Part shown: positions 14,076 to 62,475 of the stretch, in pieces
How positions within the stretch are numbered: position 1 is the stretch's first letter
Layout: each line of letters starts with the position of its first letter
Assembly: GCF_900184685.1 (NCBI RefSeq)
Contig: NZ_FXXL01000005.1
Coordinates: 310,001 to 374,000, forward strand
Direction of reading: 5' to 3'
DNA from: Butyricimonas sp. Marseille-P3923
GTDB taxonomy: Bacteria; Bacteroidota; Bacteroidia; Bacteroidales; Marinifilaceae
Length of the DNA: 64,000 bases
Translations under genes and position numbers: made by a program
Notes under the pieces: generated by a model
Database searches by the model: none
What the model was told of the DNA's origin: nothing
What the model saw: only the letters and a program-made list of their open reading frames with translations

Positions 14076-14109
14076 AATCTAAAATCTAAAATCCTTAAAT
14101 CTAAAATTA
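14076..14109 (+). repeat. Heptad array before metK (TCTAAAA repeats)
   Basis: AT-rich tandem copies of a 7-bp unit (A)TCTAAA(A), one with an insertion, ending in TCTAAAATTA exactly 4 nt before the metK ATG. The same ending and spacing recur before folK and topB. Confidence 0.85.
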
Positions 14110-14113
14110 ATTT

Positions 14114-15400
14114 ATGGGATACTTATTTACATCTGAATCCGTATCGGAAGGACATCCGGACAAAGTGGCAGACCAGATTTCGGATGCCGTGCTAGACAAA
14201 ATCATCGCGTTCGACGCGGACGCCAAGGTTGCCTGCGAAACACTGGTAACCACGGGACAAACCGTCATCGCGGGAGAAATCAAAACGAAAACTTACGTGG
14301 ACGTGCAACAAATCGCCCGTGACGTGATCAACCGCATCGGTTACACCAAAAGCGAATACATGTTCGACGGGAACAGCTGCGGAGTCCTCAGTGCCATTCA
14401 CGAACAATCTCCCGACATCAACCGGGGAGTGGTACGCGAAGACCCGATGGAACAAGGAGCCGGCGACCAAGGCATGATGTTCGGTTACGCTTGCAGCGAA
14501 ACGGATAACTACATGCCGCTAGCTCTCGAGTTATCACACCTGCTGTTATTCGAGCTCGCCCGAATCCGCAAGGAAGGACAGGAAATGACCTACCTGCGCC
14601 CGGACTCGAAATCACAGGTAACCATTGAATACGGCGACGACAACAAACCCGCCCGTGTTCACACGATAGTGATCTCCACCCAGCATGATGAATTTGTCCG
14701 TGCCAAAGAAACATCACCGGAAGCCCGGCTTGAAGCTGACGCCCAAATGGTGGATCAAATCCGTTGGGACATCATCAACATTCTGCTTCCGCGGGTAAAA
14801 CAACAATTGCCGGAACGCGTGCAAGCCCTGTTTGACGAGAACCTGATTCTCCACGTCAACCCCACGGGCAAATTCGTAATCGGCGGTCCTCACGGGGATA
14901 CCGGGCTTACCGGAAGAAAAATTATCGTTGACACTTACGGCGGAAAAGGTGCGCACGGCGGCGGCGCGTTCTCCGGCAAAGACCCTTCCAAAGTAGACCG
15001 TTCAGCCGCTTACGCCGCCCGTCATATCGCTAAAAACATGGTTGCGGCAGGCATCGCCGACGAAATATTAATTCAAATCTCCTACGCCATCGGTATCGCC
15101 CGTCCCGTGGGAATATTCGTGAACACTTACGGCACGGCAAAAGTAAACCTGAGCGATTCCGCTATTGCCGGGAAAATCGAACAACTTTTCGACCTTCGCC
15201 CGAAAGCCATCGAGCAACGCTTGAAACTCCGTAACCCGATCTATCAAGAAACGGCAAGCTACGGCCACATGGGAAGAACTCCCAGAACCGTGAAAAAAGT
15301 ATTCACCTCGAACTATTGGCCGACTAAAGAAGTAGAAGTCGAACTTTTCACGTGGGAAAAACTCGATTACGTCGAAAAAATCAAAGAAGCCTTTTTATAA
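14114..15400 (+). CDS. metK: S-adenosylmethionine synthase
   Basis: This 428-residue enzyme makes S-adenosylmethionine from methionine and ATP in the cytoplasm. It shows the N-terminal [19 protein letters not shown] with the catalytic His, a central [12 protein letters not shown] (the nucleotide and metal region) and [19 protein letters not shown] near residues 275-295, the second signature of the family. It is slightly longer than the usual 384 residues of E. coli MetK, through a Bacteroidetes-type insertion around 90-110 and a C-terminal tail. The start follows a SAM-II riboswitch leader and a heptad array; a strong terminator follows the stop. Confidence 0.98.
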
Positions 15401-15430
15401 AAAAACGAGAGGGAACACCTCTCGTTTTTT
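15401..15430 (+). terminator. metK terminator
   Basis: Stem CGAGAGG (15406-15412) / CCTCTCG (15418-15424) with a 5-nt loop, flanked by A5 and T7, directly after the metK stop. The A/T flanks make it work in both directions. Confidence 0.9.
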
Positions 15431-15431
15431 T

Positions 15432-15528
15432 AGTTCGTAAAGTTTATAAAGTTCATAAAGTTGAACCTTCGGTTCTCAAAGTCCTTATACCTTACGAACC
15501 TTATAAACTTTATAAACCTTACAAACTT
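15432..15528. repeat. Intergenic element with inverted 9-bp iterons (copy 1)
   Basis: Left arm: three 9-bp units of type GTTYRTAAA. Right arm: four units of type CTTATAAAC in inverted orientation. Between them lies a small hairpin GAACC-TTC-GGTTC. It lies between the convergent 3' ends of metK and the zinc peptidase gene. Two further copies are at 40596 and 59540. Confidence 0.8.
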
Positions 15529-15529
15529 A

Positions 15530-16219
15530 TTAATCCCTCCGCCCCATAAAGATCATGACATAATATAATAAGGTAGCTAAAGAACCAAGCGCGGCAATCA
15601 CGTACGTGTAAGCAGCCCATTTCAAGGCATCCTTAGCACTTTCTTGCGATTCGTAAGTCGTTATACCGGAATTCCGCAACCATGCCAATGCCCGATGACT
15701 GGCATCAATTTCCACGGGTAACGTGATAAAACTAAATAAAGTCATTGCTCCAAAAAGAATAATCCCAGCCAACATTACTTGAGGGAATGCCTGTAATGTT
15801 AAGATTCCCGCCAACAGTATCCATTGTACCCACCGGGAAGCAAAACTTACCATCGGCACCAAAGCCGAACGCAATTTCAACATACCGTAAGCCTGCGCGT
15901 GTTGCAAAGCATGACCGCACTCGTGTGCTGCCACAGCCGCGGCTGCCACATTGGCACCATAATATACTTCCTGACTCAAATTAATCGTCTTGTTCGTCGG
16001 ATTATAATGGTCGGTCAGTTGCCCCTGTACACTACCGATCTTCACCCCTTGTACACCATTATCCCTCAACATTTTCTCCACCACGTCTTTCCCGGTCATC
16101 CCGTTAGCGGTGGGTATTTTAGAGTACTTCTTAAAACGAACTTGTAACTGGTGGCTTACCAACCAACTCAAGATCGCAAATCCAATAAATATTATCCAAA
16201 TCAAACTCATTCCTGTCAT
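15530..16219 (-). CDS. Neutral zinc metallopeptidase, YugP family
   Basis: This 229-residue membrane metallopeptidase has an N-terminal membrane span (about 5-23), a cytoplasmic region, the zinc motif HECGH at 99-103 (within AAHECGHALQHA), two further spans at about 120-165, and a third zinc ligand probably in ILPVEIDASHRALAWL (the E/D-rich helix after the spans). The layout fits the Zn_peptidase_2 (YugP) family, whose substrates are not known. It may start at 16219 or at the second Met (16210). It is not in an operon with its neighbours. Confidence 0.88.
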   Translation of the reverse strand: MTGMSLIWIIFIGFAILSWLVSHQLQVRFKKYSKIPTANGMTGKDVVEKMLRDNGVQGVKIGSVQGQLTDHYNPTNKTINLSQEVYYGANVAAAAVAAHECGHALQHAQAYGMLKLRSALVPMVSFASRWVQWILLAGILTLQAFPQVMLAGIILFGAMTLFSFITLPVEIDASHRALAWLRNSGITTYESQESAKDALKWAAYTYVIAALGSLATLLYYVMIFMGRRD

Positions 16220-16312
16220 AAATCAATCAAATTAAAATTCATTTCAAATATATACAAAAAACAGACCATTCCCCCCGTTGATAAATATTTTTAGCAAGAA
16301 TGACATAAACTA

Positions 16313-16342
16313 TTGCTTTTTAATAAAATCTTCACTAATTTG
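16313..16342 (+). promoter_or_regulatory. Possible promoter of EF-G2 gene
   Basis: TTG (16313-16315) and TAATTTG (16336-16342), 20 bp apart, resemble the Bacteroidetes -33/-7 pair with one base missing in the -7 box. A leader of about 45 nt would follow. Confidence 0.35.
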
Positions 16343-16396
16343 TAACCCTCGAATTATTTGAACAGTTATATACGTTATTAACTAAACTGTATTATA

Positions 16397-18556
16397 ATGA
16401 AGACCTATAAACCTAACGAAATTAAAAACATCGCGCTGGTGGGTAGTGCCGGGTCCGGCAAAACCACGTTAGCGGAATCCATGATGTACGAGGGCGGGGT
16501 CATCCCGCGCAGAGGTAGCATTAGTGCAAAAAACACTTCATCCGACTACCGTCCGGTAGAACAGGAATACGGATCATCAGTATTCCCGGCTGTACTATAC
16601 ACGGAGTGGAAAGAGCACAAGCTCAATTTTATTGACACCCCGGGTGCAGACGATTTTGTCGGAGGAGTTATCTCTGCGCTGAACGTTGTCGATACCGGAG
16701 TAATGGTCATTAATGCCGTTAGAGGTGTCGAGGTAGGAACCGAGATCATCGCACGTCACGCGAAAAGACTCAACAAACCGTTGATTTTCGTTATCAACCA
16801 AGTAGATCACGAGAAAGCAAATTTCGACCACACGATGGAACAAGCGAAAGCCGCTTTCGGTTCAAAAGTCGTGCAAGTACAATACCCCGTGAACCCGGGA
16901 CTCGGATTCAACCGGGTAATTGACGTTTTAAAGATGGAAATGTACCAGTGGAAACCCGAGGGCGGCAAACCGGAAGTACTCCCCATCCCCAAAGAAGAAG
17001 AAGAGAAAGCACACGAACTGCATAACGCATTGATCGAGGCTGCCGCCGAGAACGACGAGCAACTCATGGAATTATTCTTCGAGAAAGGCTCGCTAACAGA
17101 AGACGAGATGCGCGCGGGAATCCGCAAAGGACTCATCGCACGGGATATGTTCCCCGTGTTCTGCGTGTCGGCAGAGAAAGACATGTGCGTGCGTCGTTTC
17201 ATGGAATTTGTTATCAACGTGGCACCGAGTGCCGGCAGTATGCCCCCGTCCATCACGGAAGACGGTCAGGAAATTCCTTACGACGAAAAAGGCCCAACCT
17301 CCCTGTACATGTTCAACACCACGGTAGAGCCTCATTTGGGAGAAGTGATTTATTTCAAAGTGGCTTCCGGCACGGTACATGAAGGTGACGATCTATATAA
17401 CGCCACCAACGACAGTAAAGAACGTATCTCCACGCTATACGCGGTAGCCGGGAAAAACCGCACGAAAGTACCTGAAATGATGGCAGGAGATATCGGCGCT
17501 ACCGTTAAACTGAAAAACACGAACAACGGCGACACGCTGAACGAGAAAGACGTTCATTACAAATTCGGTCAAATCCAATACCCGAATCCCCGTTTCAGAA
17601 CAGCCGTACGTGCCGCTAACACGAGCGACGAAGAAAAACTCGCCGAAGTACTGCAACGTATTCATCAGGAAGACCCCACGTTCCTCGTGGAATATTCCAA
17701 GGAATTGAAACAAATGATTATCTCCGGTCAGGGAGAATTCCACCTGAACACGATGAAATGGCGCATCGAGCACAACGACAAGTTGGAAATCGAATTTTAC
17801 CCGCCAAGAATACCGTATCGCGAAACCATCACCAAATACTCTTACGCCGACTACCGCCACAGGAAACAATCGGGTGGTGCCGGACAATTCGGAGAAGTAC
17901 ATCTCGTGATAGAACCTTATGCCGAGGGCATGCCCGCCCCGACCATGTACAAAATCAACGGTGTCGATAGCAAAATTTCAGTGAAAGACACCGAAGTCGT
18001 TGAATTGCCGTGGGGTGGGAAACTGGTATTCTACAATTGTATCGTGGGTGGTGTTATCGACGCCCGCTTCATGCCGGCAATCTTGAAGGGTATCATGGAG
18101 AAAATGGAAGAAGGCCCACTTACCGGCTCATACGCCCGCGACATCCGTGTCAGCGTGTACGACGGCAAGATGCACCCCGTGGACTCAAACGAAATCTCGT
18201 TCAAACTTGCCGGACGTAATGCCTTCAGCGCCGCATTCAAACAAGCTGGTCCGAAAATCCTTGAACCTATCTACGACGTGGAAGTCCTCGTTCCGGACGA
18301 ATACATGGGCGACGTGATGGGCGACCTCCAAACCCGTAGAGCCATCATCATGGGAATGGAAGCCGACTCCGGGTTCCAGAAACTAATGGCGAAAGTACCG
18401 TTAAAAGAAATGCAACGCTACTCCACGGCATTAAGTTCCATCACCGGTGGACGCGCCTCCTTCACGATGAACTTCTCCGGCTATGAAAAAGTTCCGTCAG
18501 AAGTTCAGGATGAGCTGCTGAAAACTTACCAAGAAGAGAAGGCAGACGAAGATTAA
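16397..18556 (+). CDS. Elongation factor G paralogue (EF-G2 type) lacking the catalytic His
   Basis: This 719-residue translational GTPase of EF-G shape has a P-loop GSAGSGKTT at 16-24, G3 DTPGADDF at 80-87, G4 INQVD, then domains II-V (PYRETITKYSYADYRHRKQSGGAGQFGEV in domain IV; SITGGRASFTMNFSGYEKVP at the end). The His of canonical DTPGHVDF, needed to activate GTP hydrolysis, is Ala84, and G4 is NQxD instead of NKxD. This matches the Bacteroides EF-G2 paralogue, which is reported to support translocation without GTP hydrolysis and to be needed in carbon starvation in the gut. It is not the main EF-G. It stands alone, with a hairpin terminator after it. Confidence 0.93.
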   Translation: MKTYKPNEIKNIALVGSAGSGKTTLAESMMYEGGVIPRRGSISAKNTSSDYRPVEQEYGSSVFPAVLYTEWKEHKLNFIDTPGADDFVGGVISALNVVDTGVMVINAVRGVEVGTEIIARHAKRLNKPLIFVINQVDHEKANFDHTMEQAKAAFGSKVVQVQYPVNPGLGFNRVIDVLKMEMYQWKPEGGKPEVLPIPKEEEEKAHELHNALIEAAAENDEQLMELFFEKGSLTEDEMRAGIRKGLIARDMFPVFCVSAEKDMCVRRFMEFVINVAPSAGSMPPSITEDGQEIPYDEKGPTSLYMFNTTVEPHLGEVIYFKVASGTVHEGDDLYNATNDSKERISTLYAVAGKNRTKVPEMMAGDIGATVKLKNTNNGDTLNEKDVHYKFGQIQYPNPRFRTAVRAANTSDEEKLAEVLQRIHQEDPTFLVEYSKELKQMIISGQGEFHLNTMKWRIEHNDKLEIEFYPPRIPYRETITKYSYADYRHRKQSGGAGQFGEVHLVIEPYAEGMPAPTMYKINGVDSKISVKDTEVVELPWGGKLVFYNCIVGGVIDARFMPAILKGIMEKMEEGPLTGSYARDIRVSVYDGKMHPVDSNEISFKLAGRNAFSAAFKQAGPKILEPIYDVEVLVPDEYMGDVMGDLQTRRAIIMGMEADSGFQKLMAKVPLKEMQRYSTALSSITGGRASFTMNFSGYEKVPSEVQDELLKTYQEEKADED

Positions 18557-18577
18557 TTATTCAATTATAAAATTTTT

Positions 18578-18620
18578 CCCCTTTTGAAAATGCGCAATGT
18601 GCTTGCCACTTCAAAAGGGG
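18578..18620 (+). terminator. Hairpin after EF-G2 gene
   Basis: An 11-bp perfect stem CCCCTTTTGAA (18578-18588) / TTCAAAAGGGG (18610-18620) lies 22 bp after the stop. The loop is 21 nt and the following AGGTTTTA is a weak T-run, so termination is likely but not certain. Confidence 0.6.
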
Positions 18621-18728
18621 AGGTTTTATGGCAACAACCACTGCCCGCGGGGGAATGAGTGAACAAGAATATCAAGCGGGAATAAATTTCTTAATTCGAA
18701 TATATAAATCAATAAACAAACAATAATT

Positions 18729-19229
18729 ATGAAAACACTTTCTCCCAAAGGAATGAAATGGTTGAAATTTTTTCACGTGTTGTGCGCGATTTGCTGGATT
18801 GGCAGTGCTTTCGGGATGAATGTATTAAAACATTTTATCGACACGACGGTTCCGGAAGGACGGTACATTCTCTCGCTGGCGATAAAATTGCTTGATGATG
18901 AACTCATCTATATCGGAGTTTCCGGATGTCTTATCACGGGTATTATTTACGGGTGTTGCACGAAATGGGGATTCTTCAAGCATCAATGGCTGACACTCAA
19001 ATGGATTCTAACCTTTGTCATGATTGTACTCGGCACTTTCATCATCGGACCGGCAGTCACCGGTAATGTTCATCCTGATCTTGAATGGTACACGACGAAT
19101 CTTTCGGAATATACACGTAATATGTCCGTAACCGCATGGTGGGGCGGCTCGCAGATAATAATCCTGTTAATTGTCCTTTACCTTTCCGTGTTCAAACCGA
19201 CAAAAAAGAAAAACAATGCCAGAGTCTAG
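18729..19229 (+). CDS. Four-span integral membrane protein (DUF2269-like)
   Basis: This 166-residue protein has four hydrophobic segments at about 10-32 (FFHVLCAICWIGSAFGMNVL), 57-75, 85-108 (LKWILTFVMIVLGTFIIGP) and 135-157. A His in the first span (FFHVLCAICWIGS) and the general pattern recall DUF2269 / CopD-like small membrane proteins. No cofactor-binding motif is secure. It has its own spacing from both neighbours (about 170 bp before, 75 bp after), so it is probably monocistronic. Function unknown. Confidence 0.75.
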   Translation: MKTLSPKGMKWLKFFHVLCAICWIGSAFGMNVLKHFIDTTVPEGRYILSLAIKLLDDELIYIGVSGCLITGIIYGCCTKWGFFKHQWLTLKWILTFVMIVLGTFIIGPAVTGNVHPDLEWYTTNLSEYTRNMSVTAWWGGSQIIILLIVLYLSVFKPTKKKNNARV

Positions 19230-19251
19230 ATAGTGTCTTGAAATATCATAC

Positions 19252-19282
19252 TTGCAAACTCCCCATCATTTTCATACTTTTG
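19252..19282 (+). promoter_or_regulatory. Promoter of rsmE
   Basis: TTG (19252-19254) and TACTTTTG (19275-19282) with a 20-bp spacer fit the Bacteroidetes promoter. Its position rules out an upstream in-frame start at 19252 and supports the ATG at 19306. Confidence 0.7.
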
Positions 19283-19305
19283 CCCCGTCATTAAAACACG
19301 GAACT

Positions 19306-23502: not shown

Positions 23503-23532
23503 TTTATTTTAGATTTCAGACTGAGGTTACTC

Positions 23533-23565
23533 AATCTAAAATCTAAAATCTAAAATCTAAAATTA
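23533..23565 (+). repeat. Heptad array before folK (TCTAAAA repeats)
   Basis: Four tandem 7-bp units TCTAAAA ending in TCTAAAATTA, 4 nt before the folK ATG. An inverted unit (TTTTAGATTT, about 23508-23517) lies upstream, so the RNA can fold into a stem of about 10 bp. Confidence 0.88.
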
Positions 23566-23569
23566 GTAC

Positions 23570-24049
23570 ATGCTGGTAACTCTTATTTTCGGGGGAAATC
23601 AAGGTGACCGGAAAGCACTCATTGATGAAGCGGTAAAAGAAATGTCGGAGCTCGGGAAGATCGAAACTCGTTCTTCCCTCTACGAAACCGCCCCTTGGGG
23701 ATTTGAATCAGAGAATACCTTTTACAATCAAATCGTGACCTACAACACGGAATTATCCCCGGAAGAAGTTCTCGACAAATGCCAGCAAACCGAACAAAAA
23801 CTGGGAAGGGTACGCGCGGGAGTACAATTCTGTTCCCGTACCATGGATATCGACATCCTGTTCTGTGACTCACTGCTCATCGACACCCCCCGTCTGACAG
23901 TACCCCATCCCAGAATGGCACAACGCAATTTTGTCCTGTGCCCGTTAAATGAAATCATGCCGGACTTCATGCATCCCGTTCTCCGTAAAAAAATATCCGA
24001 ACTCCTGCAAGAAAGTCCGGATACTTTAAAAACCGAAATAATTGGGTGA
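23570..24049 (+). CDS. folK: 2-amino-4-hydroxy-6-hydroxymethyldihydropteridine pyrophosphokinase
   Basis: This 159-residue enzyme of folate synthesis transfers pyrophosphate from ATP to 6-hydroxymethyl-dihydropterin in the cytoplasm. The family pattern is plain: GGNQGDRKALIDEA at the start (usually LGSNxGD), SSLYETAPWGFE, FYNQIV, LGRVRAG...SRTMDIDILF with the Mg-binding DxD, and VPHPRMAQRNFVLCPLNEIMPDF. The loop between GRVRAG and SRTMDID is QFCSR where most enzymes have Y-G-x-R, a mild change. It stands alone between DUF4290 and the convergent kelch gene. Confidence 0.96.
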   Translation: MLVTLIFGGNQGDRKALIDEAVKEMSELGKIETRSSLYETAPWGFESENTFYNQIVTYNTELSPEEVLDKCQQTEQKLGRVRAGVQFCSRTMDIDILFCDSLLIDTPRLTVPHPRMAQRNFVLCPLNEIMPDFMHPVLRKKISELLQESPDTLKTEIIG

Positions 24050-39034: not shown

Positions 39035-40597
39035 ATGAATCACATGCTAGATACGACACTAAAGAACCAGCTAAAAACTATTTTCGAGGGATTGGAAGCA
39101 ACATACACGTTTGATGTCATTGTTGCACCTCAACACGAGAATCGCCAAGAACTCTTGGAAATATTAAACGACGTTAGCGAATGCTCCGATAAAATATCGT
39201 GCAAACTCACGGAAGGAGACGGGCTAGCGTTCACGATCTTAAAGAACGAAGAAAAAACAGGTATAAAATTCCGGGGTGTTCCCAATGGACACGAGTTCAC
39301 CTCTTTGTTGCTCGCCATCATGAATCTGGAGGGCAAAGGCAAAAACTTCCCGGATGAAACCACCTGTAACAGGGTAAAAGCCTTGAAAGGCCCCATTCAC
39401 TTGACAACCTACGTTTCACTGACTTGCACGAACTGCCCGGATGTCATTCAAGCTCTGAATGCCATGACCACGTTGAATGACCAAATCACGCACGAGATGG
39501 TGGACGGAGCAATCAATCAGGCTGAAGTAGAGGCTTCAAATATACAAGGTGTACCTTCCGTGTTTGCCGACGGGAAATTGATTCATGTCGGACGGGGAGA
39601 ATTCGGGGAATTATTGAGTAAACTGGAAAACCAATACGGTAGCAACGAGGACACGATTGATACCACCGAAAAACACTATGACGTGATTGTCGTCGGCGGA
39701 GGACCCGCGGGGGCAGCCGCAGCCATTTATTCGGCACGCAAGGGGTTGAATGTAGCTATCGTGGCTGAACGCGTAGGCGGGCAGGTAAAAGAAACCGTGG
39801 GTATCGAGAACCTGATATCCGTACCCGAAACAACCGGTAGCCTATTGGCCGAAAACATTAGAACACATATTCAGCGCTACCCGATAGACCTGTTGGAACA
39901 TCGCCGGATAGAGAAAGTTGAAATCGAGAAGAATCAGAAAATATTATCCACGGCAAAAGGGGAGAAATTCATCGCTCCGGCAGTCATTATTGCCACGGGA
40001 GCAAGTTGGAGAAAATTAAACGTGGCGGGTGAGGCAGAATATACAGGTAGAGGCGTTGCCTTCTGCCCGCATTGTGACGGACCTTTCTATAAAGGTAAAC
40101 AGGTAGCCGTTATCGGCGGGGGCAATTCGGGGATTGAAGCAGCAATTGATTTGGCGGGAATTTGTTCAAAAGTAACAGTTCTGGAATTCCTCGAGGAATT
40201 AAAAGCTGACCAAGTACTACAAGAAAAAGTAAAGAGCCTGTCGAACGTGGAAGTATTCACCAACTCGCAAACTTTGGAAATCATCGGGAATGGAGAAAAA
40301 GTAACCGGGATACAAGTGAAAGACCGCAAGACAGAAGAAAGTAGAGTAATCACCTTGGACGGGATATTCGTTCAAATCGGATTGGTTCCGAATAGTGGAG
40401 CGTTCCGTGAAGTAGTGGATACCAACCGTCCCGGAGAAATAGTGATTGACGCGCATTGCCGCACGAACATTCCGGGCATATACGCGGCAGGAGATGTATC
40501 TTCGGTACCTTACAAACAAATTATCATAGCTATGGGTGAAGGAGCGAAAGCCGCACTTTCCGCTTTTGAAGACCGTACACGTGGGGTGCTGGATTAG
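39035..40597 (+). CDS. ahpF: Alkyl hydroperoxide reductase subunit F
   Basis: This 520-residue flavoprotein passes electrons from NADH to AhpC. The N-terminal double thioredoxin-fold region (1-195) has the redox pair CTNC (SLTCTNCPDVIQ). Then comes the FAD domain with VIVVGGGPAGAAAAIYSARKG at about 208, the catalytic CPHC in AFCPHCDGPFYKG and the NADH-binding VAVIGGGNSGIEAAIDLAG. Alternative ATG at 39044. It lies behind a terminator-like hairpin after ahpC. Confidence 0.97.
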   Translation: MNHMLDTTLKNQLKTIFEGLEATYTFDVIVAPQHENRQELLEILNDVSECSDKISCKLTEGDGLAFTILKNEEKTGIKFRGVPNGHEFTSLLLAIMNLEGKGKNFPDETTCNRVKALKGPIHLTTYVSLTCTNCPDVIQALNAMTTLNDQITHEMVDGAINQAEVEASNIQGVPSVFADGKLIHVGRGEFGELLSKLENQYGSNEDTIDTTEKHYDVIVVGGGPAGAAAAIYSARKGLNVAIVAERVGGQVKETVGIENLISVPETTGSLLAENIRTHIQRYPIDLLEHRRIEKVEIEKNQKILSTAKGEKFIAPAVIIATGASWRKLNVAGEAEYTGRGVAFCPHCDGPFYKGKQVAVIGGGNSGIEAAIDLAGICSKVTVLEFLEELKADQVLQEKVKSLSNVEVFTNSQTLEIIGNGEKVTGIQVKDRKTEESRVITLDGIFVQIGLVPNSGAFREVVDTNRPGEIVIDAHCRTNIPGIYAAGDVSSVPYKQIIIAMGEGAKAALSAFEDRTRGVLD

Positions 40598-40723
40598 TTT
40601 ATAAAGTTTATAAAGTTTGTAAGGTTTATAAGGTTCATAACGGCAACTTTCGTTGCCGTTAAATTCTGTCCGAAGAATACCTGTAACTTTATAAACTTTA
40701 TGAACTTTATAAACCTTAGGAAC
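40596..40723. repeat. Intergenic element with inverted 9-bp iterons (copy 2)
   Basis: Five 9-bp units of type AGTTTATAA on the left, about four of type CTTTATAAA/CTTTATGAA inverted on the right, with a central hairpin AACGGCAAC-TTTC-GTTGCCGTT. It lies between the convergent 3' ends of ahpF and the AI-2E-type gene. Confidence 0.85.
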
Positions 40724-40732
40724 CCGGTGAAC

Positions 40733-42225: not shown

Positions 42226-43782
42226 ATGCTTCTTGATCTGACAACCACCACTCTAGTGGAGTGGTCACGATGGCAATTCGCCATGACAGCAATCTACCAC
42301 TACATGTTTGTTCCCCTCACGCTGGGATTAGCCTTGATGCTCGCCGTCATGGAAACCATGTGGGTAAAGACAGGTGACGACAGTTGGCTGAAAGCCACCA
42401 AGTTCTGGATGAAATTATTCGGTATTAACTTCGCTATCGGGGTCGCCACCGGACTAATCCTCGAATTCCAGTTCGGGACGAACTGGTCGAATTACTCTTG
42501 GTTCGTGGGCGATATCTTCGGGGCTCCGTTGGCCATCGAGGGTATTATCGCGTTCTTCCTCGAATCCACGTTCGTGGCAGTGATGTTCTTCGGTTGGAAC
42601 AAAGTCGGCAAACGCTTCCATCTCGTATCCACGTGGATGGTATTCGTCGGCGCGAACATCTCAGCCCTATGGATTCTTGTCGCCAACGCTTGGATGCAAA
42701 ACCCCGTCGGCATGGAATTCAACCCGATTACCGCCCGCAACGAAATGGACGATTTTTGGGCAATACTGTTCTCGCCCACGGCAATCAGCAAATTCACTCA
42801 CACGGTAACCTCCGCGTACACGCTTTCCGCCTGTTTCGTGGTAGGTGTCAGTTCATGGTTTATCCTCAAGAAAAGACACCTCGAATTTGCCCGCAAGAGT
42901 ATCATGCTCGCCTCGGTGTTCGGGTTGATCAGTATCATTTTAACCATTTACACGGGTGACAGCAGCGCACAAGACGTAACAAAGACTCAACCCATGAAAT
43001 TCGCCGCCATGGAAGGCTTGAATGAAGGTGGCAGAGGTGCCGCATTCACCGTTATCGGACTCCCGGTAAACGATCCGTCCTTGCCGACAGATAGAATGAA
43101 GAAAATGGAATACGCCATCCATGTACCCAAAGTACTCTCGTTCCTCGGCTATCATGATTTTGACGCCTACATCCCGGGCATTCAGAATATTCTGGACGGC
43201 TACACGTCTCAATCCGGCGTAACCTATCCTTCTTTAGAACAACGCATGGCAAACGGTCGCACCGCGATTGATGCATTGAAGACTTACAAGCAAGCCATAA
43301 AAGAGAATAACCACACGATGGCCGACAGCACATTACAGATATTTAAAGCCAACTACTCCGATTTCGGGTATGGCTATCTTAATTCCCCCTACGATGCCAT
43401 ACCTCATATACCTTTGGTATTTTTCAGTTTCCGTATCATGGTAGGACTGGGAATGCTTTTTGTTTTATTATTCGCCCTCTCTTTGTGGTACGCCAAGAAA
43501 AGAAAATTCGAGAAATTCAAATTCATCCCCTACTTGGCATTATTCTGTGTTCCGATGGCATACGTCGCATCGCAATGCGGCTGGATAGTGGCTGAAGTAG
43601 GACGCCAACCGTGGGTGGTACAAGATTTAATGCCTACCAATGTTGCCGTGACAAAAATTGCATCGACTTGGGTTATGACCACATTCTGGATGTTCGCCGT
43701 ACTCTTCACCGTCCTGCTCATCGCGGAACTGAAGATTATGTTCAACCAAATCAAGAAAGGACCCGAAACAATTGAAAATTGA
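42226..43782 (+). CDS. cydA: Cytochrome bd quinol oxidase subunit I
   Basis: This 518-residue, about nine-span membrane protein carries the hemes of the bd oxidase, which reduces oxygen to water with quinol and lets anaerobes use or remove nanomolar oxygen. Seen: SRWQFAMTAIYHYMFVPLTLGL (heme ligand His in span 1), the fourth-helix GVSSWFILKKRH, a Q-loop of about 110 residues (250-360), and GRQPWVVQDLMPT, the GRQPW family signature. The last codons and stop (TIEN-stop) are formed by an ATTGAAA heptad array. Followed by cydB after 126 bp. Confidence 0.96.
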   Translation: MLLDLTTTTLVEWSRWQFAMTAIYHYMFVPLTLGLALMLAVMETMWVKTGDDSWLKATKFWMKLFGINFAIGVATGLILEFQFGTNWSNYSWFVGDIFGAPLAIEGIIAFFLESTFVAVMFFGWNKVGKRFHLVSTWMVFVGANISALWILVANAWMQNPVGMEFNPITARNEMDDFWAILFSPTAISKFTHTVTSAYTLSACFVVGVSSWFILKKRHLEFARKSIMLASVFGLISIILTIYTGDSSAQDVTKTQPMKFAAMEGLNEGGRGAAFTVIGLPVNDPSLPTDRMKKMEYAIHVPKVLSFLGYHDFDAYIPGIQNILDGYTSQSGVTYPSLEQRMANGRTAIDALKTYKQAIKENNHTMADSTLQIFKANYSDFGYGYLNSPYDAIPHIPLVFFSFRIMVGLGMLFVLLFALSLWYAKKRKFEKFKFIPYLALFCVPMAYVASQCGWIVAEVGRQPWVVQDLMPTNVAVTKIASTWVMTTFWMFAVLFTVLLIAELKIMFNQIKKGPETIEN

Positions 43783-43799
43783 AAATGTAAAATTGAAAG
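43771..43799 (+). repeat. ATTGAAA heptad array across the cydA stop
   Basis: Four 7-bp units (ATTGAAA, ATTGAAA, ATGTAAA, ATTGAAA). The cydA stop TGA at 43780-43782 lies inside the array, so the C-terminus is shaped by it. Confidence 0.75.
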
Positions 43800-43870: not shown

Positions 43871-43908
43871 TAAATCATAAATCATAAATCGTAAATCATA
43901 AATCATAA
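43871..43908 (+). repeat. TCATAAA heptad array before cydB
   Basis: Five 7-bp units of TCATAAA (one TCGTAAA) running directly into the cydB ATG, which takes the place of the next unit's first bases. Similar in placement to the TCTAAAA arrays of metK, folK and topB. Confidence 0.85.
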
Positions 43909-45027
43909 ATGAATATGGAATTTCTTCAACATTACTGGTGGATTTTGATATCGTTACTTGGCGGATTGCTGGTTTTCTTGCTTTTCGTGCAAGGTGGACA
44001 AACCTTACTATATACCATTGCCAAGACCGAAGACGAACGGAATGTTCTTGTCAACAGCTTGGGGCGCAAATGGGAATTTACATTCACGACATTAGTCGTG
44101 TTCGGCGGGGCATTCTTTGCAAGTTTCCCCCTGTTCTATTCAACGAGCTTCGGAGGCGCTTATCTGGCATGGATGGTCGTATTGTTCTGTTTCGTGATGC
44201 AAGCCGTTTCCTACGAGTACCGCCGAAAAGCCGGAAACTTACTCGGGGAACGTACTTATAATGTATTTCTGATTATCAATGGTGTGATTGGGACTATTTG
44301 TATCGGTGCAGTGGTCGGCTCTTTTTTCACGGGCAACCCGTTCAAATTAGGCGAGATGAACGACGTTACATGGATGAGCCCGTGGCGAGGCATAGAGGTA
44401 TTATTCAATTTTGCCAACATCTGCCTGGGACTGGCTATTTTCTTTCTCGCCCGGACTTTGGCATCCCTCTATTTCATGAACAACATCAAGCATGATGCCA
44501 TCTACGAGAGAAGTAAAAAGCAAGTCCTGTACAACTCGGTGCCTTTCGTCATTCTATTACTGGTATTCCTCGGCATCATACTGACCGGCAAAGGATACGC
44601 CATCATGGAAGATAAAAGCATCCAATTGGTTCAATACAAGTATTTCCACAATTTACTGGAAATGCCCTTGAATACTCTCGTGTTGTTGCTCGGGGTTGTC
44701 GGAGTATTATTCGGTATCATCAAATCCGTCATCACTCCTCACTGGAGAAAAGGGATATGGTTTTCCGGAATCGGTATCGTGCTTGCCGTTATCGCCCTGT
44801 TCATCGTGGCAGGATTCAACAACACGGCATTCTACCCCTCGTACACCGACCTGAACTCTTCGCTGACTATCTATAACGCCTCGTCCTCCTACTACACGTT
44901 AAAGACCATGGCATACGTTTCTTTGGTTTCTCCCATCGTGCTCGCGTACATCTTCTACGCGTGGAGAGCCCTTAACAAGAAACAAATTGATATCCAAGAC
45001 GTACAGGATGACCACCACGCGTACTAA
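43909..45027 (+). CDS. cydB: Cytochrome bd quinol oxidase subunit II
   Basis: This 372-residue protein has about eight spans and pairs with CydA. It starts NMEFLQHYWWILISLLGGLLVFLLFVQGGQTLL; the loop GGQTLL, then NVLVNSLGRKWEFTFTTLVVFGGAFFASFPLFYST and SYEYRRKAGN are typical of Bacteroidetes CydB. The ATG at 43909 is directly preceded by the heptad array; a second ATG lies at 43915. A hairpin follows the stop. Confidence 0.95.
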   Translation: MNMEFLQHYWWILISLLGGLLVFLLFVQGGQTLLYTIAKTEDERNVLVNSLGRKWEFTFTTLVVFGGAFFASFPLFYSTSFGGAYLAWMVVLFCFVMQAVSYEYRRKAGNLLGERTYNVFLIINGVIGTICIGAVVGSFFTGNPFKLGEMNDVTWMSPWRGIEVLFNFANICLGLAIFFLARTLASLYFMNNIKHDAIYERSKKQVLYNSVPFVILLLVFLGIILTGKGYAIMEDKSIQLVQYKYFHNLLEMPLNTLVLLLGVVGVLFGIIKSVITPHWRKGIWFSGIGIVLAVIALFIVAGFNNTAFYPSYTDLNSSLTIYNASSSYYTLKTMAYVSLVSPIVLAYIFYAWRALNKKQIDIQDVQDDHHAY

Positions 45028-55048: not shown

Positions 55049-55072
55049 TTCATTATTTATAAAGATTTAAAC

Positions 55073-55906: not shown

Positions 55907-55907
55907 A

Positions 55908-55941: not shown

Positions 55942-55960
55942 CTATATTACCCAAATCTTC

Positions 55961-57376: not shown

Positions 57377-57387
57377 ATATTATCTTT

Positions 57388-59040
57388 TTAATTATTCTCG
57401 ACCATCTCCTTTGCCGCACTCAAAGCCATATCGAACTTCGGGTAAATATTCCCGACCCCGACAAGTTCGCCGATTCCGCCTTTCAACAAATCTTTCTTCA
57501 CCGGTTCACTTACTCCCGACAACACGATTCTCGTGTTCTCCTTTGTCAACTGTAGAATAGTTTCTTTCAGGTTTTTCAACCCGGTAGAATCCACGAACGG
57601 CACATGCCGCATACGGATAATCAACACACTATAATTCACGCCCAAGTTACGAATTGTTTCGCAATAAGTCTTAGCCGAACCGAAGAAAAACGGCCCGCTA
57701 ATCTCGTATATACCCAAACCTTTCGGTAAATCCTTGTAATTCTCAGAGATATCTTGGTCCAGATTGGTTGCCCCGGTAATCTCTTTCGGCGCATTATCCG
57801 CCATACGCTTCATGAACAAGAGTGCCGCCAGCACAACCCCTATCTCGATAGCCACGGTCAAATCGACCAACACGGTCAAGAAGAACGTCACCAGCAAAAT
57901 CACCACGTCGAACACCGAAGCCCGCAATATGGAACGGAACGACCGCCATTCACTCATGTTATAAGAAACCACGATTAAAATACCCGCCAAACAGGACATG
58001 GGAATCAAAGAAGCCCATTTCCCGAAAAACAACATAATCAACAACAGAACCACGGCATGCGTCATTCCCGCCACCGGGGTACGCCCCCCGTTTTTCACGT
58101 TAGTTGCCGTACGGGCAATAGCTCCCGTGGCAGGGATTCCCCCGAACAAAGGAGAGGCTATATTGGCAATACCTTGCGCTATCAACTCCGTGTTGGAACG
58201 ATGACGACCACTAATCATACCATCAGCCACCACGGCGGACAGCAACGACTCAATCGAGCCCAGTATGGCAATCGTCAGTGCCGGTTGCAGGTAATAAGAC
58301 AAATTCCCCCAATCTATCGTCGGAAAAGTCGGAGCGAAATTACACTTAATCTCCCCGAACAACGACCCGATAGTCGTCACCGAGTTCTCCGGCAAAAACA
58401 TAGCAAGAGGAGTAATAACCAATATCGCCACGAAAGAACCCGGAACCCGTGATGTAATCTTCGGCATATACACGGTAATCAATATTGTCACGACCGTGAT
58501 TCCCACGGCATACCAATTCACCGTGTTGATATTACTGAAATAAGCTCCCCATTTCCCGATAAAACTACTCGGTAAATCCGCAATCGTCAACCCCAAGGCG
58601 TTGGATATCTGCGTCGAGAAAATCACCAAAGCGATTCCTGAAGTAAAACCGACAATCAAGGGATGCGGAATAAATTTCAGCAACGTACCCAACCGTAACA
58701 ACCCGAATCCAATCATAATCACCCCCGCCAATATCGTGGCGATAATCATACCGTCAATCCCGTACTGTTGGATAATCCCGTAAACAATAACAATAAAAGC
58801 ACCCGTGGGACCACCGATTTGTACCCGGCTTCCTCCCAGCAACGAAATCAAAAAACCGGCAACGATAGCCGTTATAATACCTTTCTCCGGAGATACCCCG
58901 GAAGCCACGGCAAACGCAATTGCCAACGGAATCGCCACGATTCCCACTACTACTCCCGCGAGAATATCCTTAGAAAGATTCTTCTTCACGGTACCATCTT
59001 TAATTAAACCGAACAGCTTCGGACTGAACACCTTTTCCAT
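57388..59040 (-). CDS. SulP family anion transporter with STAS domain
   Basis: This 550-residue inner-membrane transporter has about 12-14 spans. The family start is clear (KKNLSKDILAGVVVGIVAIPLAIAFAVASGVSPEKG), as is GGPTGAFIVIVYGI and the NTELIAQGIANIASPLFGGIPATGAIARTATN signature at about 280-310. A cytoplasmic STAS domain follows at about 440-545 (LIIRMRHVPFVDSTGLKNLKETI). Substrates in the family are sulfate, bicarbonate or dicarboxylates. It heads a two-gene unit with the purF-like gene. Confidence 0.95.
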   Translation of the reverse strand: MEKVFSPKLFGLIKDGTVKKNLSKDILAGVVVGIVAIPLAIAFAVASGVSPEKGIITAIVAGFLISLLGGSRVQIGGPTGAFIVIVYGIIQQYGIDGMIIATILAGVIMIGFGLLRLGTLLKFIPHPLIVGFTSGIALVIFSTQISNALGLTIADLPSSFIGKWGAYFSNINTVNWYAVGITVVTILITVYMPKITSRVPGSFVAILVITPLAMFLPENSVTTIGSLFGEIKCNFAPTFPTIDWGNLSYYLQPALTIAILGSIESLLSAVVADGMISGRHRSNTELIAQGIANIASPLFGGIPATGAIARTATNVKNGGRTPVAGMTHAVVLLLIMLFFGKWASLIPMSCLAGILIVVSYNMSEWRSFRSILRASVFDVVILLVTFFLTVLVDLTVAIEIGVVLAALLFMKRMADNAPKEITGATNLDQDISENYKDLPKGLGIYEISGPFFFGSAKTYCETIRNLGVNYSVLIIRMRHVPFVDSTGLKNLKETILQLTKENTRIVLSGVSEPVKKDLLKGGIGELVGVGNIYPKFDMALSAAKEMVENN

Positions 59041-59178
59041 AATGCTACCTTGTTAAAAACAAGCCGCAAAGGTAATAATATAAATGGTAAAATGAAAAAA
59101 CGTGAAAATGAAAAACATTCCCGCAGGCTCTGCACAGTCAAACAGCCTGTAACCTGCCAACTTGCCGAAGGCAAACGC

Positions 59179-59532
59179 CTACACGTTAAAAACTTCCCTC
59201 ACGTACTTCTTCAATTCCCCTTTCGACAGAGCCCCCCGTCCCAATCGCGGCTGCCCCAGCATGGGCACGAACAGCAAGGTAGGAATACTATGTACCCGAA
59301 ACGCCCGTGCCAGCTCCCGTTCCACTTCACTATCCACCTTATAAATATCAATCTTCCCCTCGTACTCCCGCTTCAACTCCTCCAGAATCGGGGCAATGGT
59401 CTTACACGTGCCGCTCCAGTTCGCGTAAAAATCTATCAATGCAGGACGCTCCCCCTCAAACTTATACCTCCCGCCATCTTGGTAGTCAAACACTTTCTGT
59501 TTAAAGCTATCCTTGGTCAAATGCTCAATCAT
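59179..59532 (-). CDS. Thioredoxin-like protein with single Cys (SGTC)
   Basis: This 117-residue cytoplasmic thioredoxin fold has the motif FYANWSGTCKTIAPILEEL: the first redox Cys of WCGPC is Ser40 and only Cys43 remains. The cis-Pro strand VHSIPTLLFVPMLGQP and the C-terminal helix are normal. With CxxC lost, a normal dithiol reductase is excluded; monothiol, trapping or structural roles are possible. It stands alone between the SulP gene and a 9-bp-iteron element. Confidence 0.88.
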   Translation of the reverse strand: MIEHLTKDSFKQKVFDYQDGGRYKFEGERPALIDFYANWSGTCKTIAPILEELKREYEGKIDIYKVDSEVERELARAFRVHSIPTLLFVPMLGQPRLGRGALSKGELKKYVREVFNV

Positions 59533-59539
59533 ATAATCA

Positions 59540-59650
59540 GTTTATAAAGTTCATAAAGTCCATAAAGTTTATAAAGTTCTTTCCAAAAAACATTTGTTTG
59601 GTAGCTCATCCACTTTATGAACCTTACAAACCTTATGAACCTTATAAACT
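59540..59650. repeat. Intergenic element with inverted 9-bp iterons (copy 3)
   Basis: Four 9-bp units of type GTTTATAAA/GTTCATAAA/GTCCATAAA, a central hairpin built on CCAAA/TTTGG, and four inverted units of type CTTATGAAC/CTTATAAAC. It lies between divergent genes (thioredoxin-like and yccF), so this family is not restricted to convergent 3' ends. Confidence 0.82.
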
Positions 59651-59670
59651 CCATATTCTTACGACATTAT

Positions 59671-59701
59671 TTTCCTTTTTGTTTTCTTTATCGTATCTTT
59701 G
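59671..59701 (+). promoter_or_regulatory. Promoter of yccF-like gene
   Basis: TTTC (59671-59674) and TATCTTTG (59694-59701), 19 bp apart, 32 bp before the ATG. Confidence 0.65.
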
Positions 59702-59732
59702 GTGAGGCTATTTAAATATTAATACAATAAAC

Positions 59733-60101
59733 ATGAAAATCTTAGGAAATATTATCTGGGTAGTCTTCGGCGGACTATTCATCGCCATTGAATACTTCGT
59801 TTCCAGCGTGGGACTATTCATCACTATTATAGGTATCCCTTTCGGGTTGCAAACCTTAAAACTCGGCGTGTTGGCACTATGGCCGTTCGGCAGCAAGGTT
59901 GTCGATATTCCACAAAGCAGCGGTTGTCTGTCCTTTTTGATGAATGTCATCTGGTTCTTTATCGGCGGGATATGGATATTCCTGTCGCACATACTCTTCG
60001 GGGTAATCTTCTGCATCACCATCATCGGCATCCCCTTCGGCATGCAGCATTTTAAACTCGCCGGACTAGCCCTGACACCCTTCGGCCACGACGTGGAATA
60101 A
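59733..60101 (+). CDS. YccF domain membrane protein
   Basis: This 122-residue inner-membrane protein has two repeats of the YccF domain: each has a hydrophobic segment and the conserved IIGIPFGxQ (IGIPFGLQTLKLGVLALWPFG at about 35-55 and IGIPFGMQHFKLAGLALTPFG at about 98-118). The domain count and length are those of family members in Bacteria. Function unknown. Terminated by a hairpin just after the stop. Confidence 0.92.
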   Translation: MKILGNIIWVVFGGLFIAIEYFVSSVGLFITIIGIPFGLQTLKLGVLALWPFGSKVVDIPQSSGCLSFLMNVIWFFIGGIWIFLSHILFGVIFCITIIGIPFGMQHFKLAGLALTPFGHDVE

Positions 60102-60105
60102 GAAA

Positions 60106-60131
60106 AGCGGACCACATCCCTAAGGTCCGCT
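60106..60131 (+). terminator. Hairpin after yccF-like gene
   Basis: 8-bp stem AGCGGACC (60106-60113) / GGTCCGCT (60124-60131), 5 bp after the stop; a second hairpin GAAAACAAT/ATTGTTTTC lies at 60203-60244. No strong T-run. Confidence 0.6.
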
Positions 60132-60322
60132 CATCTAAAAATGTCGCCAAGCGACAGGGATTTACACGTTCTGTGATTCACGATTTAGTGATTCAATATC
60201 ATGAAAACAATATGATTTCCATCTCATTGTTTTCTTCATTTATGTTATCGTTTCACAAATCTAAAGAATAAAAACCGATAACACGTCCTTGGAAAAAGGA
60301 TTTAAGATAGATTTAATACACC

Positions 60323-62437
60323 CTATTTCTTATCCACGACCACCTTGCAACTGTCGTCCAAACGCAAAACACCGCTAAACGTACTGCCATCCTCGTTTTT
60401 AAAACCGGTCAACACACCCGTTTTAGACTTTAACACCAACGCCTCGACTTGCTTCTGTGTTAATTTTTTCCCAAAAAATTCCATGGGAACAAGAAAATCA
60501 CATGACTTCCGGTACAAACTACACCCCCAAGCAGTCCGTCCCTTGATTACGTCGCCGTTCCCGCACTTCGGGCATTTCAGCACGACAGGCTCCGCGGGCT
60601 CCTTTTTCTTCCGGGGAGTTTTCTCCTTTTTCGGTTCCTCATTTTTCACTTCCTCGGTCACCTCCACCGTGATTGCCTTCCGGGGCGAACATTTGACAAC
60701 ATGTACCAGCTCATTCACCATCACCTTCAACTCCTCCATAAAATCAGCAATCTGATAAGTCCCGTCCTCTATCATCCGCAACTTCTTCTCCCACTGTCCC
60801 GTCAATTCCGCCGACTTCAACAAATCATTCTGTATCGTGTCAATCAACTCCACTCCCGTTGACGTCGCCACCAGTCGCTTCTTATCCTTGCGAATATATC
60901 CCCGCTTTAACAACGTTTCGATAATACCCGCCCGCGTAGATGGTCGCCCAATCCCGTTCTCTTTCATCAAGTCCCGCAATTCCTCGTCCTCCACCTGTTT
61001 CCCGGCAGTTTCCATGGCACGCAACAAATCTGCCTCCGTGTAATACTTCGGCGGCTGCGTTTCTTTCTCCTGCAACTCCGGCGTATGTGGTCCTTTCTCC
61101 CCCACCTCGTACACGGGCAACACGTTCTCGTCACTCTGTTTGTTGGATGCCGCCGGAAACACCACCCGCCATGCAGGATTAATAATCTGTTTCCCGGTCG
61201 CCTTAAATTCATGTTCACCCACTTGCGCCATCACCGTTGTATTGGCAATCTCACAATCCGGGTAGAACACCGCGATAAAACGTCGGGCAACCAAATCGTA
61301 CACCCGCTTCTCGTCGGGCGTCATGTCATAACTGAACACCCCGGTAGGAATGATAGCGTGGTGGTCCGTGATTTTCTTATCATTGAATACCTTCGCCGAT
61401 TTTCGCAACTTTCCCCCGTTCAACACGGCGTCAACCAATGTCGCGTAAGGTTTTAACCCTTTCAGTATTCCCGGTGCCTTCGGGTATATATCATTCGGTA
61501 AAAAATTCGTGTCCACACGGGGATAAGTCGTCAATTTTTTCTCGTAAAGCGACTGTATCACTTTCAACGTCGTGTCTGCCGAGAAAGCAAACTTCCGGTT
61601 ACACTCCACCTGCAACAATGTCAAGTCAAACAATTTCGGGGGATGCTCCATTGCCTTTTTGCGTTCCGAACTCTTGATTTCCAACTCCAAGGGCGTAATC
61701 TCCTGCATGAAGCCTTCCGCTTCCTCTTTCACCGTGAAACGTCCTTTCGTGTAAGAAAACCAACCTCCCCGGTAATCCGTCCGCACCTCCCAATAAGTTT
61801 CGGGTTTGAACTGCTCTATCGCCTTTTGCCTGTCCACGAGCAACGCCAACGTGGGCGTCTGTACCCGCCCGATTGACAACACGTTTTTCCCGTTACCGTA
61901 ACGCAACGTGTAGGCCCGCGTGGCATTCATTCCCAACAACCAATCACCGATAGCCCTTGCCGAACCCGCCGCGTACAACGTGTCAAAATCCTTCGCGTCC
62001 ATCAACTTATCAAACCCCTCCTTGATTGCCTCTTCCGTCAACGACGAAATCCACAACCGTTTCACCGGAGCCTTGCACTTCGCTTTTGTCATCACCCATC
62101 GTTGTATCAACTCTCCCTCCTGTCCGGCATCACCGCAGTTTATCACCATCTCCGCCCGATTGAACAACTCCTCGATAACAGCAAACTGCCGTTTAATCCC
62201 CTCGTCATCAATCAACTTGATTCGAAACGAGGACGGAATCATCGGCAGTACCGACAAATTCCAGAACTTCCACTTTTCCGTGTACTCGTGCGGTTCCTGT
62301 AACGAACAAAGATGCCCGAATGTCCACGTCACGCAATAGTCATTCCCCTCGAAATAACCATTCCGACGCACTTTGGCTCCCAACACCTCCGCAATCTCTT
62401 TCGCCACACTCGGCTTTTCCGCTATACAAACACGCAT
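60323..62437 (-). CDS. topB: DNA topoisomerase III
   Basis: This 704-residue type IA topoisomerase has an N-terminal Toprim domain (CIAEKPSVAKEIAEVLGA, INCGDAGQEGELIQRW with its acidic triad), the central region SIGRVQTPTLALLVDRQ and the catalytic Tyr in KKLTTYPRVDTNFL (about residue 310). NGIGRPSTRAGIIETLLKRGYI is the helix that holds DNA. The tail has a Lys/Glu linker and a zinc ribbon (CPKCGNGDVIKGRTAWGCS). It decatenates DNA in replication and recombination. An array of TCTAAAA heptads lies before the ATG. Housekeeping or mobile-element copies both exist in Bacteroidales; no mobile gene is near. Confidence 0.96.
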   Translation of the reverse strand: MRVCIAEKPSVAKEIAEVLGAKVRRNGYFEGNDYCVTWTFGHLCSLQEPHEYTEKWKFWNLSVLPMIPSSFRIKLIDDEGIKRQFAVIEELFNRAEMVINCGDAGQEGELIQRWVMTKAKCKAPVKRLWISSLTEEAIKEGFDKLMDAKDFDTLYAAGSARAIGDWLLGMNATRAYTLRYGNGKNVLSIGRVQTPTLALLVDRQKAIEQFKPETYWEVRTDYRGGWFSYTKGRFTVKEEAEGFMQEITPLELEIKSSERKKAMEHPPKLFDLTLLQVECNRKFAFSADTTLKVIQSLYEKKLTTYPRVDTNFLPNDIYPKAPGILKGLKPYATLVDAVLNGGKLRKSAKVFNDKKITDHHAIIPTGVFSYDMTPDEKRVYDLVARRFIAVFYPDCEIANTTVMAQVGEHEFKATGKQIINPAWRVVFPAASNKQSDENVLPVYEVGEKGPHTPELQEKETQPPKYYTEADLLRAMETAGKQVEDEELRDLMKENGIGRPSTRAGIIETLLKRGYIRKDKKRLVATSTGVELIDTIQNDLLKSAELTGQWEKKLRMIEDGTYQIADFMEELKVMVNELVHVVKCSPRKAITVEVTEEVKNEEPKKEKTPRKKKEPAEPVVLKCPKCGNGDVIKGRTAWGCSLYRKSCDFLVPMEFFGKKLTQKQVEALVLKSKTGVLTGFKNEDGSTFSGVLRLDDSCKVVVDKK

Positions 62438-62441
62438 CGAA

Positions 62442-62475
62442 TAATTTTAGATTTTAAATTTTAGATTTTAGATTT
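62442..62475 (-). repeat. Heptad array before topB (TCTAAAA repeats)
   Basis: On the minus strand, four to five units of (A)TCTAAA(A) or TTTAAAA, ending in TCTAAAATTA, 4 nt from the topB ATG (62437). Spacing and last ten bases are the same as before metK and folK. Confidence 0.87.

Follow-up and report, generated by a model that had tools for sequence, protein, structure and literature searches.

The arrays of TCTAAAA units that stand directly before metK, folK and topB in a 64,000-nucleotide stretch of Butyricimonas sp. Marseille-P3923 (the window, C3:310001-374000 of the 5.30-Mb genome G000) are best explained, with a probability that we put at about 0.57, as the start-side arms of intergenic repeats that are dispersed, mosaic and mirror-ended. 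This reading is carried by the mirror geometry of the arrays, the sharing of segments between unrelated gaps in both orientations, the unassociated heptad types of the two arms and the change between species. The sequence-only reading had proposed a fixed-distance translation enhancer or S1-binding site and, as a second option, a repeat that spreads into 5' untranslated regions. The three arrays that it described before metK, folK and topB were found at the coordinates and on the strands given below, and all of them end in TCTAAAATTA, followed by exactly 4 nt (ATTT, GTAC and TTCG, respectively) and the ATG. The metK array was impure, with an out-of-register CCTTAAA, and the topB array contained one TTTAAAA unit. 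In Pfam, the downstream genes matched S-AdoMet synthetase (metK), HPPK (folK) and bacterial topoisomerase (the topB-like gene); topB was closest to Butyricimonas synergistica (94%) and Candidatus B. faecavium (91%) among the named relatives. The earlier description did not contain the mirror arrays after stop codons, the further unit families or the SAM-II riboswitch before metK. The arms concerned are the following.

14058..14074, plus strand: opposed arm in the metK gap, ATTTACGATTTATGATT, the reverse complement of the AAATCNN type (by eye).
14076..14109, plus strand: metK start-side arm, AATCTAAAATCTAAAATCCTTAAATCTAAAATTA, with the ATG at 14114.
23506..23520, plus strand: stop-side arm after the DUF4290 gene, ATTTTAGATTTCAGA, the inverted partner of the folK array.
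23533..23565, plus strand: folK start-side arm, four TCTAAAA units with the end TCTAAAATTA and the ATG at 23570.
43770..43798, plus strand: stop-side arm of the TTGAAAA family at the cydA end, overlapping the cydA stop, with the TGA within a unit.
43871..43910, plus strand: start-side arm of AAATCAT/AAATCGT units directly 5' of cydB in the cydA-cydB gap, where AAATC-type units are found in six species.
62442..62475, minus strand: topB start-side arm, ending in TCTAAAATTA-TTCG-ATG.
62525..62562, minus strand: stop-side arm of the TTGAAAA family after the porin gene upstream of topB, with the outer TTGAAAA kept in six species.

In our study, the arrays were found to follow a mirror rule, in which (TCTAAAA), (AATCATA) or (TTTTCAA) units precede starts and their reverse complements follow stops. 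Polarity was scored with no family set beforehand, from the strand with more C than G in arrays at most 20 nt from a gene boundary; arrays that were farther away, nearly equidistant or equal in C and G were left out. In G000, the C-bearing strand ran into the gene in 106 arrays and was opposed in 9, with facing/opposed counts of 46/4 at starts and 60/5 at stops, and of 11/1 in convergent and 4/0 in divergent gaps. The counts were 14/3 in G003 and 16/1 in G004, which are close sisters and not independent. When the arrays of G000 within 30 nt were divided by family, the counts at starts and stops were 30/1 and 31/3 for AAATC, 8/1 and 4/1 for TTTTCAA, 7/1 and 19/0 for the 9-bp family, and 7/5 and 9/1 for other arrays. 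The corresponding counts in the stretches of G001-G005 were 16/2 and 20/0 for AAATC, 4/1 and none for TTTTCAA, none and 3/0 for the 9-bp family, and 7/3 and 16/5 for the others. Among those others, the 8-bp AATCACT arrays and the 11-bp AACCTGTAACTTG and TTTTATCTTTTAGT arrays were all gene-facing by eye. In three other Bacteroidota genomes, 20 loci were chosen by the AAATC pattern and inspected by eye; 13 were boundary-facing and none was clearly opposed, and the remaining seven comprised two ambiguous, two mid-gap (L141 and L147, alike in sequence) and three unreadable loci. The rule that the C-bearing strand leads into the gene is simple and checkable, holds for several families and a small set of distant Bacteroidota, and calls for a mechanism. 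As a separate observation, the mid-gap heptad array of L141 and L147 was retained in two species (G030 and G179) at an apparently orthologous intergenic region.

In the proposed explanation, each arm would be a short degenerate tandem array, and the two arms would enclose other repeated modules or a short loop. The elements would occupy intergenic gaps, in the case of the heptads mostly co-directional ones, with one arm ending at the upstream stop codon (the stop often inside a unit) and the other at the next start. They may arrive as inserts or by copying between gaps. Their AT-richness and scant structure would probably make them tolerable there, and the unit next to the ATG would serve, perhaps as a secondary role, as an A-rich leader.

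The abundance of the arrays was examined in 40 stretches of 20 kb together with the window, a sample of 864 kb with 646 called genes and 141 kb of non-coding DNA. Rows of TRF were counted as intergenic when more than 60% non-coding, overlapping rows included, and the intergenic and coding counts were 128/23 for period 7, 39/5 for period 14, 62/41 for period 9 and 44/12 for period 11. After merging, 128 arrays of period 7/14 were obtained; called genes flanked 115 of them on either side, and the gaps concerned were co-directional for 103 arrays, divergent for 11 and convergent for 1. Gaps 30 bp or longer were also searched with a two-unit pattern allowing one mismatch and compared with the means of ten dinucleotide shuffles. 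AAATC-type heptads were present in 80 of the 333 co-directional gaps against 24.3 in the shuffles, so that a fair share of leaders and 3' ends, including those at metK, folK, topB and cydAB, is made of repeats. The TTTTCAA type was found in 28 co-directional, 3 divergent and 0 convergent gaps (shuffles 4.0, 1.4 and 0.5), and the 9-bp family in 23, 5 and 6 (shuffles 1.6, 0.4 and 0). The heptads are a feature of co-directional gaps, and for the 9-bp family the counts exceed the shuffles in each kind of gap. GC-rich 11-mers were weakly raised, in at most 7 gaps against 4 in the coding control. Beyond the genus, the four-unit AAATCNN pattern was present in 61 of 395 Bacteroidota genomes, with a maximum of 118 in G000; the sample included five further genomes of the order of G000, and all five lacked the pattern. 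The reversed control matches CTAAAAT arrays in some genomes and is not independent there.

The strand rule could also be explained by Rho, if each array, unstructured and with C over G, were a rut-like (Rho utilization) loading site that stops untranslated sense or antisense transcription into the gene. The C-bearing strand does enter the gene at both ends for the AAATC, TTTTCAA and 9-bp families, and rut sites have more C than G with regularly spaced C (PMC6407284). However, the window arms measure 29-40 nt against about 78 nt for rut (PMC6407284), the C is not the least variable position, and heptads were not in excess in convergent gaps, the very place where a guard against antisense transcription should be most needed. 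We consider a role as Rho guards quite improbable.

Dispersal between gaps was evident from shared segments. The arms were of several kinds, namely heptads (AAATCNN or TTTTCAA), a 9-bp family with the unit AACYTTATR, and arrays with 8- or 11-bp units. When 421 gaps were compared, 75 pairs had at least 60 nt in common at 75% identity or more, only three of these pairs being flanked by homologous genes. The remaining 72, whose flanking genes are unrelated, involved 56 of the 421 gaps and were divided equally between the same (36) and the opposite (36) orientation. The common part contained 9-bp arms in 27 pairs, heptads in 13, 11-mers alone in 5 and none of these in 27. These segments bear out the second option of the sequence-only reading, a repeat spreading into 5' untranslated regions, strongly for the 9-bp family and moderately for the heptads. 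Copies of the 9-bp family had a common core around GTCCTTCGGAC and AAAGCGCCCGC, and the cydA-cydB gap of the window had a short GC-rich stretch and the array in common with a gap of L069. The 9-bp elements of the window are the following.

15432..15526, unstranded: element between convergent genes after metK, with inverted AGTTTATAA and TTATAAACC arms.
40596..40724, unstranded: element between convergent genes, with 9-bp inverted tandem arrays.
59539..59649, unstranded: element in a gap between minus-strand genes, with 9-bp inverted tandem arrays.

All three were observed to have kin elsewhere in the genome with a common GC-rich core. In L069, the gaps at 5441 and 5826 carry 9-bp arrays on both sides of a short called gene, in a cassette-like arrangement.

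The two arms of a gap might instead form an RNA hairpin between stop and start, with a function in translational coupling, mRNA processing or termination. Some gaps, including that of folK, have nearly complementary arms, whereas the two arms of the topB gap of the window cannot pair. For exact two-unit heptad arms on the two sides of a gap (n = 21), the types, labelled QR and T, were combined as 8 QR/QR, 7 QR/T, 3 T/QR and 3 T/T. A looser class (n = 34) gave 18, 10, 4 and 2 in the same order (odds ratio 0.9, p = 1); it allows two mismatches and takes in chance hits (69 AAATC-type and 6 TTTTCAA-type in 1122 coding 48-mers), which would dilute an association. Its polarity was also weaker, with 59 QR- and 17 QR+ on the stop side and 37 QR+ and 15 QR- on the start side. 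The complementarity of the heptad arms was 10.72 against 10.79 for permuted arms (p = 0.52, n = 34). Since the heptad types of the two arms combine without association and match no better than permuted arms, an enforced hairpin is not supported for the heptads. The 9-bp family is more favorable to pairing: 9-bp arms were present on both sides in four of the five gaps that had two gene-facing arms and at least one 9-bp arm, and seven 9-bp elements lie between convergent genes. These 9-bp arms look like matched elements, four of five gaps being too few to settle the matter. As an explanation of the arrays in general, the hairpin is judged very unlikely.

The comparison of six Butyricimonas species, in which 4-fold degenerate sites were only 46-59% identical to G000, showed retained ends and changing contents. 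In all six topB gaps, the stop was followed by TTGAAAA and the start was preceded by AATCTAAAAT, the gap length varied from 40 to 239 bp and the middles were unlike; this striking conservation is that of one locus. AAATC-type units precede cydB in all six species. Before metK, TTTTCAA units were found in G005 and AAATC-type units of period 7 or 8 in G000, G002, G003 and G004, G001 being absent from this comparison as the locus was not recovered. In the sister pair G003 and G004, whose genes have a median identity of 97.5%, the 21 array-scored gaps had a median identity of 0.957 and a lower quartile of 0.67, against 0.985 and 0.954 for 33 other gaps, some of the low identities being differences of gene calls. 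The topB gap and one 98-bp gap carried wholly different arrays in the two sisters, and in a convergent gap a 66-bp inner segment of G004 was missing from G003 at a 4-bp direct repeat (by eye). The distance between topB and metK was 40.8 kb in G003 and 91.5 kb in G004, which suggests an insertion or loss of about 50 kb.

Differences of this kind could arise by local slippage only, in which AT-rich leaders lengthen through replication slippage and nothing is copied from one site to another. The numbers of units differ between species while the ends are retained, as slippage would have it. However, a small vocabulary of units recurs over the sites, AAATCNN arrays are found again in further families of the phylum, and modules are common to unrelated gaps, so that slippage by itself is improbable.

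The genome-wide distribution of the ten bases bears on the proposed enhancer. In the window, TCTAAAATTA was found three times where 0.31 occurrences were expected, and a count of three was reached in 1 of 100 shuffles. The whole genome has 109 copies, compared with 29 of the reversed control. An ATG was present within 20 nt downstream at 50 of the 109 sites, at spacings of 0-17 nt. The spacing was 4 nt at 14 sites, 2 nt at 10 and 8 nt at 6, counts that include homologous sites, where about 2.4 sites per bin would be expected if the 50 were evenly distributed over 21 bins. The spacing of 4 nt is therefore the commonest and non-random, and it is no fixed distance; the rule of an exact 4-nt separation, drawn from three genes, applies to only 14 of the 50 sites. 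Among 30 consecutive sites in the first ~1.01 Mb of C1, 3 were within called genes, 23 were start-facing and 4 stop-facing; 16 of the 23 lay at most 25 nt from a called start, the calls being those of a home-made hexamer caller that sometimes misplaces starts (e.g., L010 and L011). A few of the 30 were lone motifs without an array. Heptamer direct repeats that end within several nucleotides of a start codon do occur in this genome.

The composition of the leaders was then compared with that of ordinary genes. In ordinary ATG genes (473), A peaked at -10 to -13. In AAATC-type genes (27), the maximum of A was at -8 (0.78 against 0.39 in ordinary genes) and A at -12 was lower (0.33 against 0.55), and the leaders of TTTTCAA-type genes (11) were T-rich. 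At the modal 4-nt spacing, the array puts UCU at -14 to -12 and its A run at -11 to -8. The leaders of Bacteroidota are A-rich without a Shine-Dalgarno sequence, as are those made by the arrays. In F. johnsoniae, the positions at which A stimulates initiation are -3, -6, -12 and -13 (PMC6847099), and these differ from the modal A run. As the A peak of the arrays is off the known positions, the arrays can serve as leaders and do not look like an optimized version of the known element.

The enhancer explanation holds that, in organisms with little use of Shine-Dalgarno sequences, the AAATC heptads before starts recruit the 30S subunit through bS1 or another RNA-binding protein and are kept by selection. 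Several observations are in its favor: TCTAAAATTA was start-facing at 23 of the 27 intergenic sites among the 30, the 4-nt spacing was over-represented, the AAATC heptad excess was confined to co-directional gaps, the AAATC core was less variable, and the units before cydB and the last unit AATCTAAAAT before topB persisted in all six species despite the low 4-fold identity; A-rich leaders are also general in Bacteroidota (PMC6847099). However, the spacing varies, mirror arrays follow stops at least as often as arrays precede starts (60 against 46 facing), U-rich TTTTCAA arrays hold the same place before starts, even at metK of G005, and UCU, not A, falls where ordinary leaders peak in A, array leaders having less A at -12 and more at -8. 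Extra conservation of array-bearing leaders was looked for in 44 orthologous co-directional gaps, far fewer of which had comparable boundaries. Start-side conservation without and with arrays was 0.84 (n = 5) and 0.75 (n = 6) in G005, 0.66 (n = 4) and 0.60 (n = 3) in G003, and 0.50 (n = 3) and 0.61 (n = 2) in G001; G004 and G002 had one array gap each, with a higher value. No consistent difference was found in this small set, which does not support such extra conservation. A fixed-distance enhancer or S1 site as the cause of the arrays is thus unlikely.

Several findings weigh against the dispersed-repeat explanation as well. It does not account for the common strand polarity of the repeat families, and a purely neutral insert does not predict the over-represented 4-nt spacing. 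AAATC heptads were at chance level in divergent (6 of 54 gaps against 7.1) and convergent gaps (3 of 46 against 2.6), and their restriction to co-directional gaps counts against it because neutral inserts should be welcome in convergent gaps. Whole-unit dispersal is clear for the 9-bp family and weaker for the heptads (13 of 72 pairs), and several heptad pairs have little in common beyond the arms. The heptad ends are unmatched, whereas the ends of a classical miniature inverted-repeat transposable element (MITE) would match. The difference between neighboring units of the AAATC type was 0.03-0.27 at positions 1-5, 0.68 at position 6 and 0.48 at position 7 (295 units in 80 arrays, chosen by consensus units with a common AAATC, so that only the within-array difference is informative); the core, less variable than the next two positions, looks like constraint, and a mixture of founder units may also account for its low variability. 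Neither a target-site duplication nor a clean empty site could be established, the relatives being too diverged or rearranged; they show only inner gain or loss and replacement within gaps. Finally, no Y1 transposase (PF01797) was found in G000. The restriction of the heptads to co-directional gaps and the common polarity of unlike families are the most interesting of these points.

A more novel possibility is a polarity-setting process in Bacteroidota by which DNA 3' ends would be extended into gaps with short-period G-strand repeats, akin to telomere addition at a break followed by the joining of two extended ends. If true, it would explain the mirror arms, the unassociated types, the common polarity, the stable ends and the labile middles in one step. 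We know of no template RNA or enzyme for it. A search of six genus genomes for Ku gave no match, so the joining would need another route and Ku-dependent end joining is not supported. We regard this process as a long shot.

The dispersed-repeat explanation can be placed beside several known systems. Repetitive extragenic palindromes (REPs) are linked to Y1 transposases, and the STRR heptamers of cyanobacteria are degenerate heptamer arrays between genes. A search of six genus genomes for PF01797 gave no match in G000 and a single match, in G001, and mobilization of the REP/RAYT kind is thus not supported. The closest precedent is a set of heptamer direct repeats, with the unit TAACTGA, in Beggiatoaceae, Cyanobacteria and a few Bacteroidetes (MacGregor, 2015, PMC4679880). 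Those are likewise intergenic 7-bp direct repeats, most of them directed toward a start codon a few nucleotides away, with some reverse-orientation sets near stops and no pattern in the functions of downstream genes; the S1, Csp and Csr families were named there as candidate binders (PMC4679880). In that system, 12 of 170 sets were stop-directed and one inverted repeat was given for BOGUAY, whereas in our study the stop-side arrays were as common as the start-side ones, several unit families had one polarity and the arms enclosed other repeats. The unit is also different, AAATCNN with the sister family TTTTCAA; TAACTGA itself was not searched for. Caution is advised in reading start-proximal heptads as regulatory sites, the proposal made for TAACTGA, when only the start side has been considered.

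Like bacterial interspersed mosaic elements (BIMEs) and REPs, the elements studied here are intergenic, mosaic and built of inverted modules, and a REP end is said often to provide the flanking gene with its TAG stop codon (PMC3733652). REPs are palindromes of 20-40 bp, whereas the arms found here are tandem arrays; REP tags were not searched for. The BrickBuilt MITE of Porphyromonas gingivalis (PMC4596501) is likewise a Bacteroidota intergenic element with inverted ends and a tandem array, of one 23-nt minisatellite unit family with 19 copies in one strain, at 49-591 nt from coding sequences. In contrast, the units of the present study are 7-11 bp, occur at many sites, adjoin the codons and form mutually inverted arms. 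As in MITEs, dispersed copies were found at unrelated loci in both orientations (the 72 pairs, 36/36); matched terminal inverted repeats within one copy were not seen for the heptads. On the best reading, the elements would work like BIME/MITE-type intergenic elements with tandem-array arms, a likeness of organization. No description of these arrays was found in the open-licence literature among the matches listed. A paper on RbpB (PMC11697453) mentions a 41-nt motif.

Another intergenic repeat, dispersed and at most about 190 bp long, was found at L052 6739, L047 16120, L080 5972 and L053 16545; it is 75-86% identical between these loci and devoid of the short-period arms studied here. In the Rfam scan of the window, one feature was above threshold.

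13958..14017, plus strand: SAM-II riboswitch 5' of metK, at 67.3 bits against a gathering score of 44.

The riboswitch is located about 96 nt upstream of the metK start codon, and the metK array, with the opposed arm, lies between the two.

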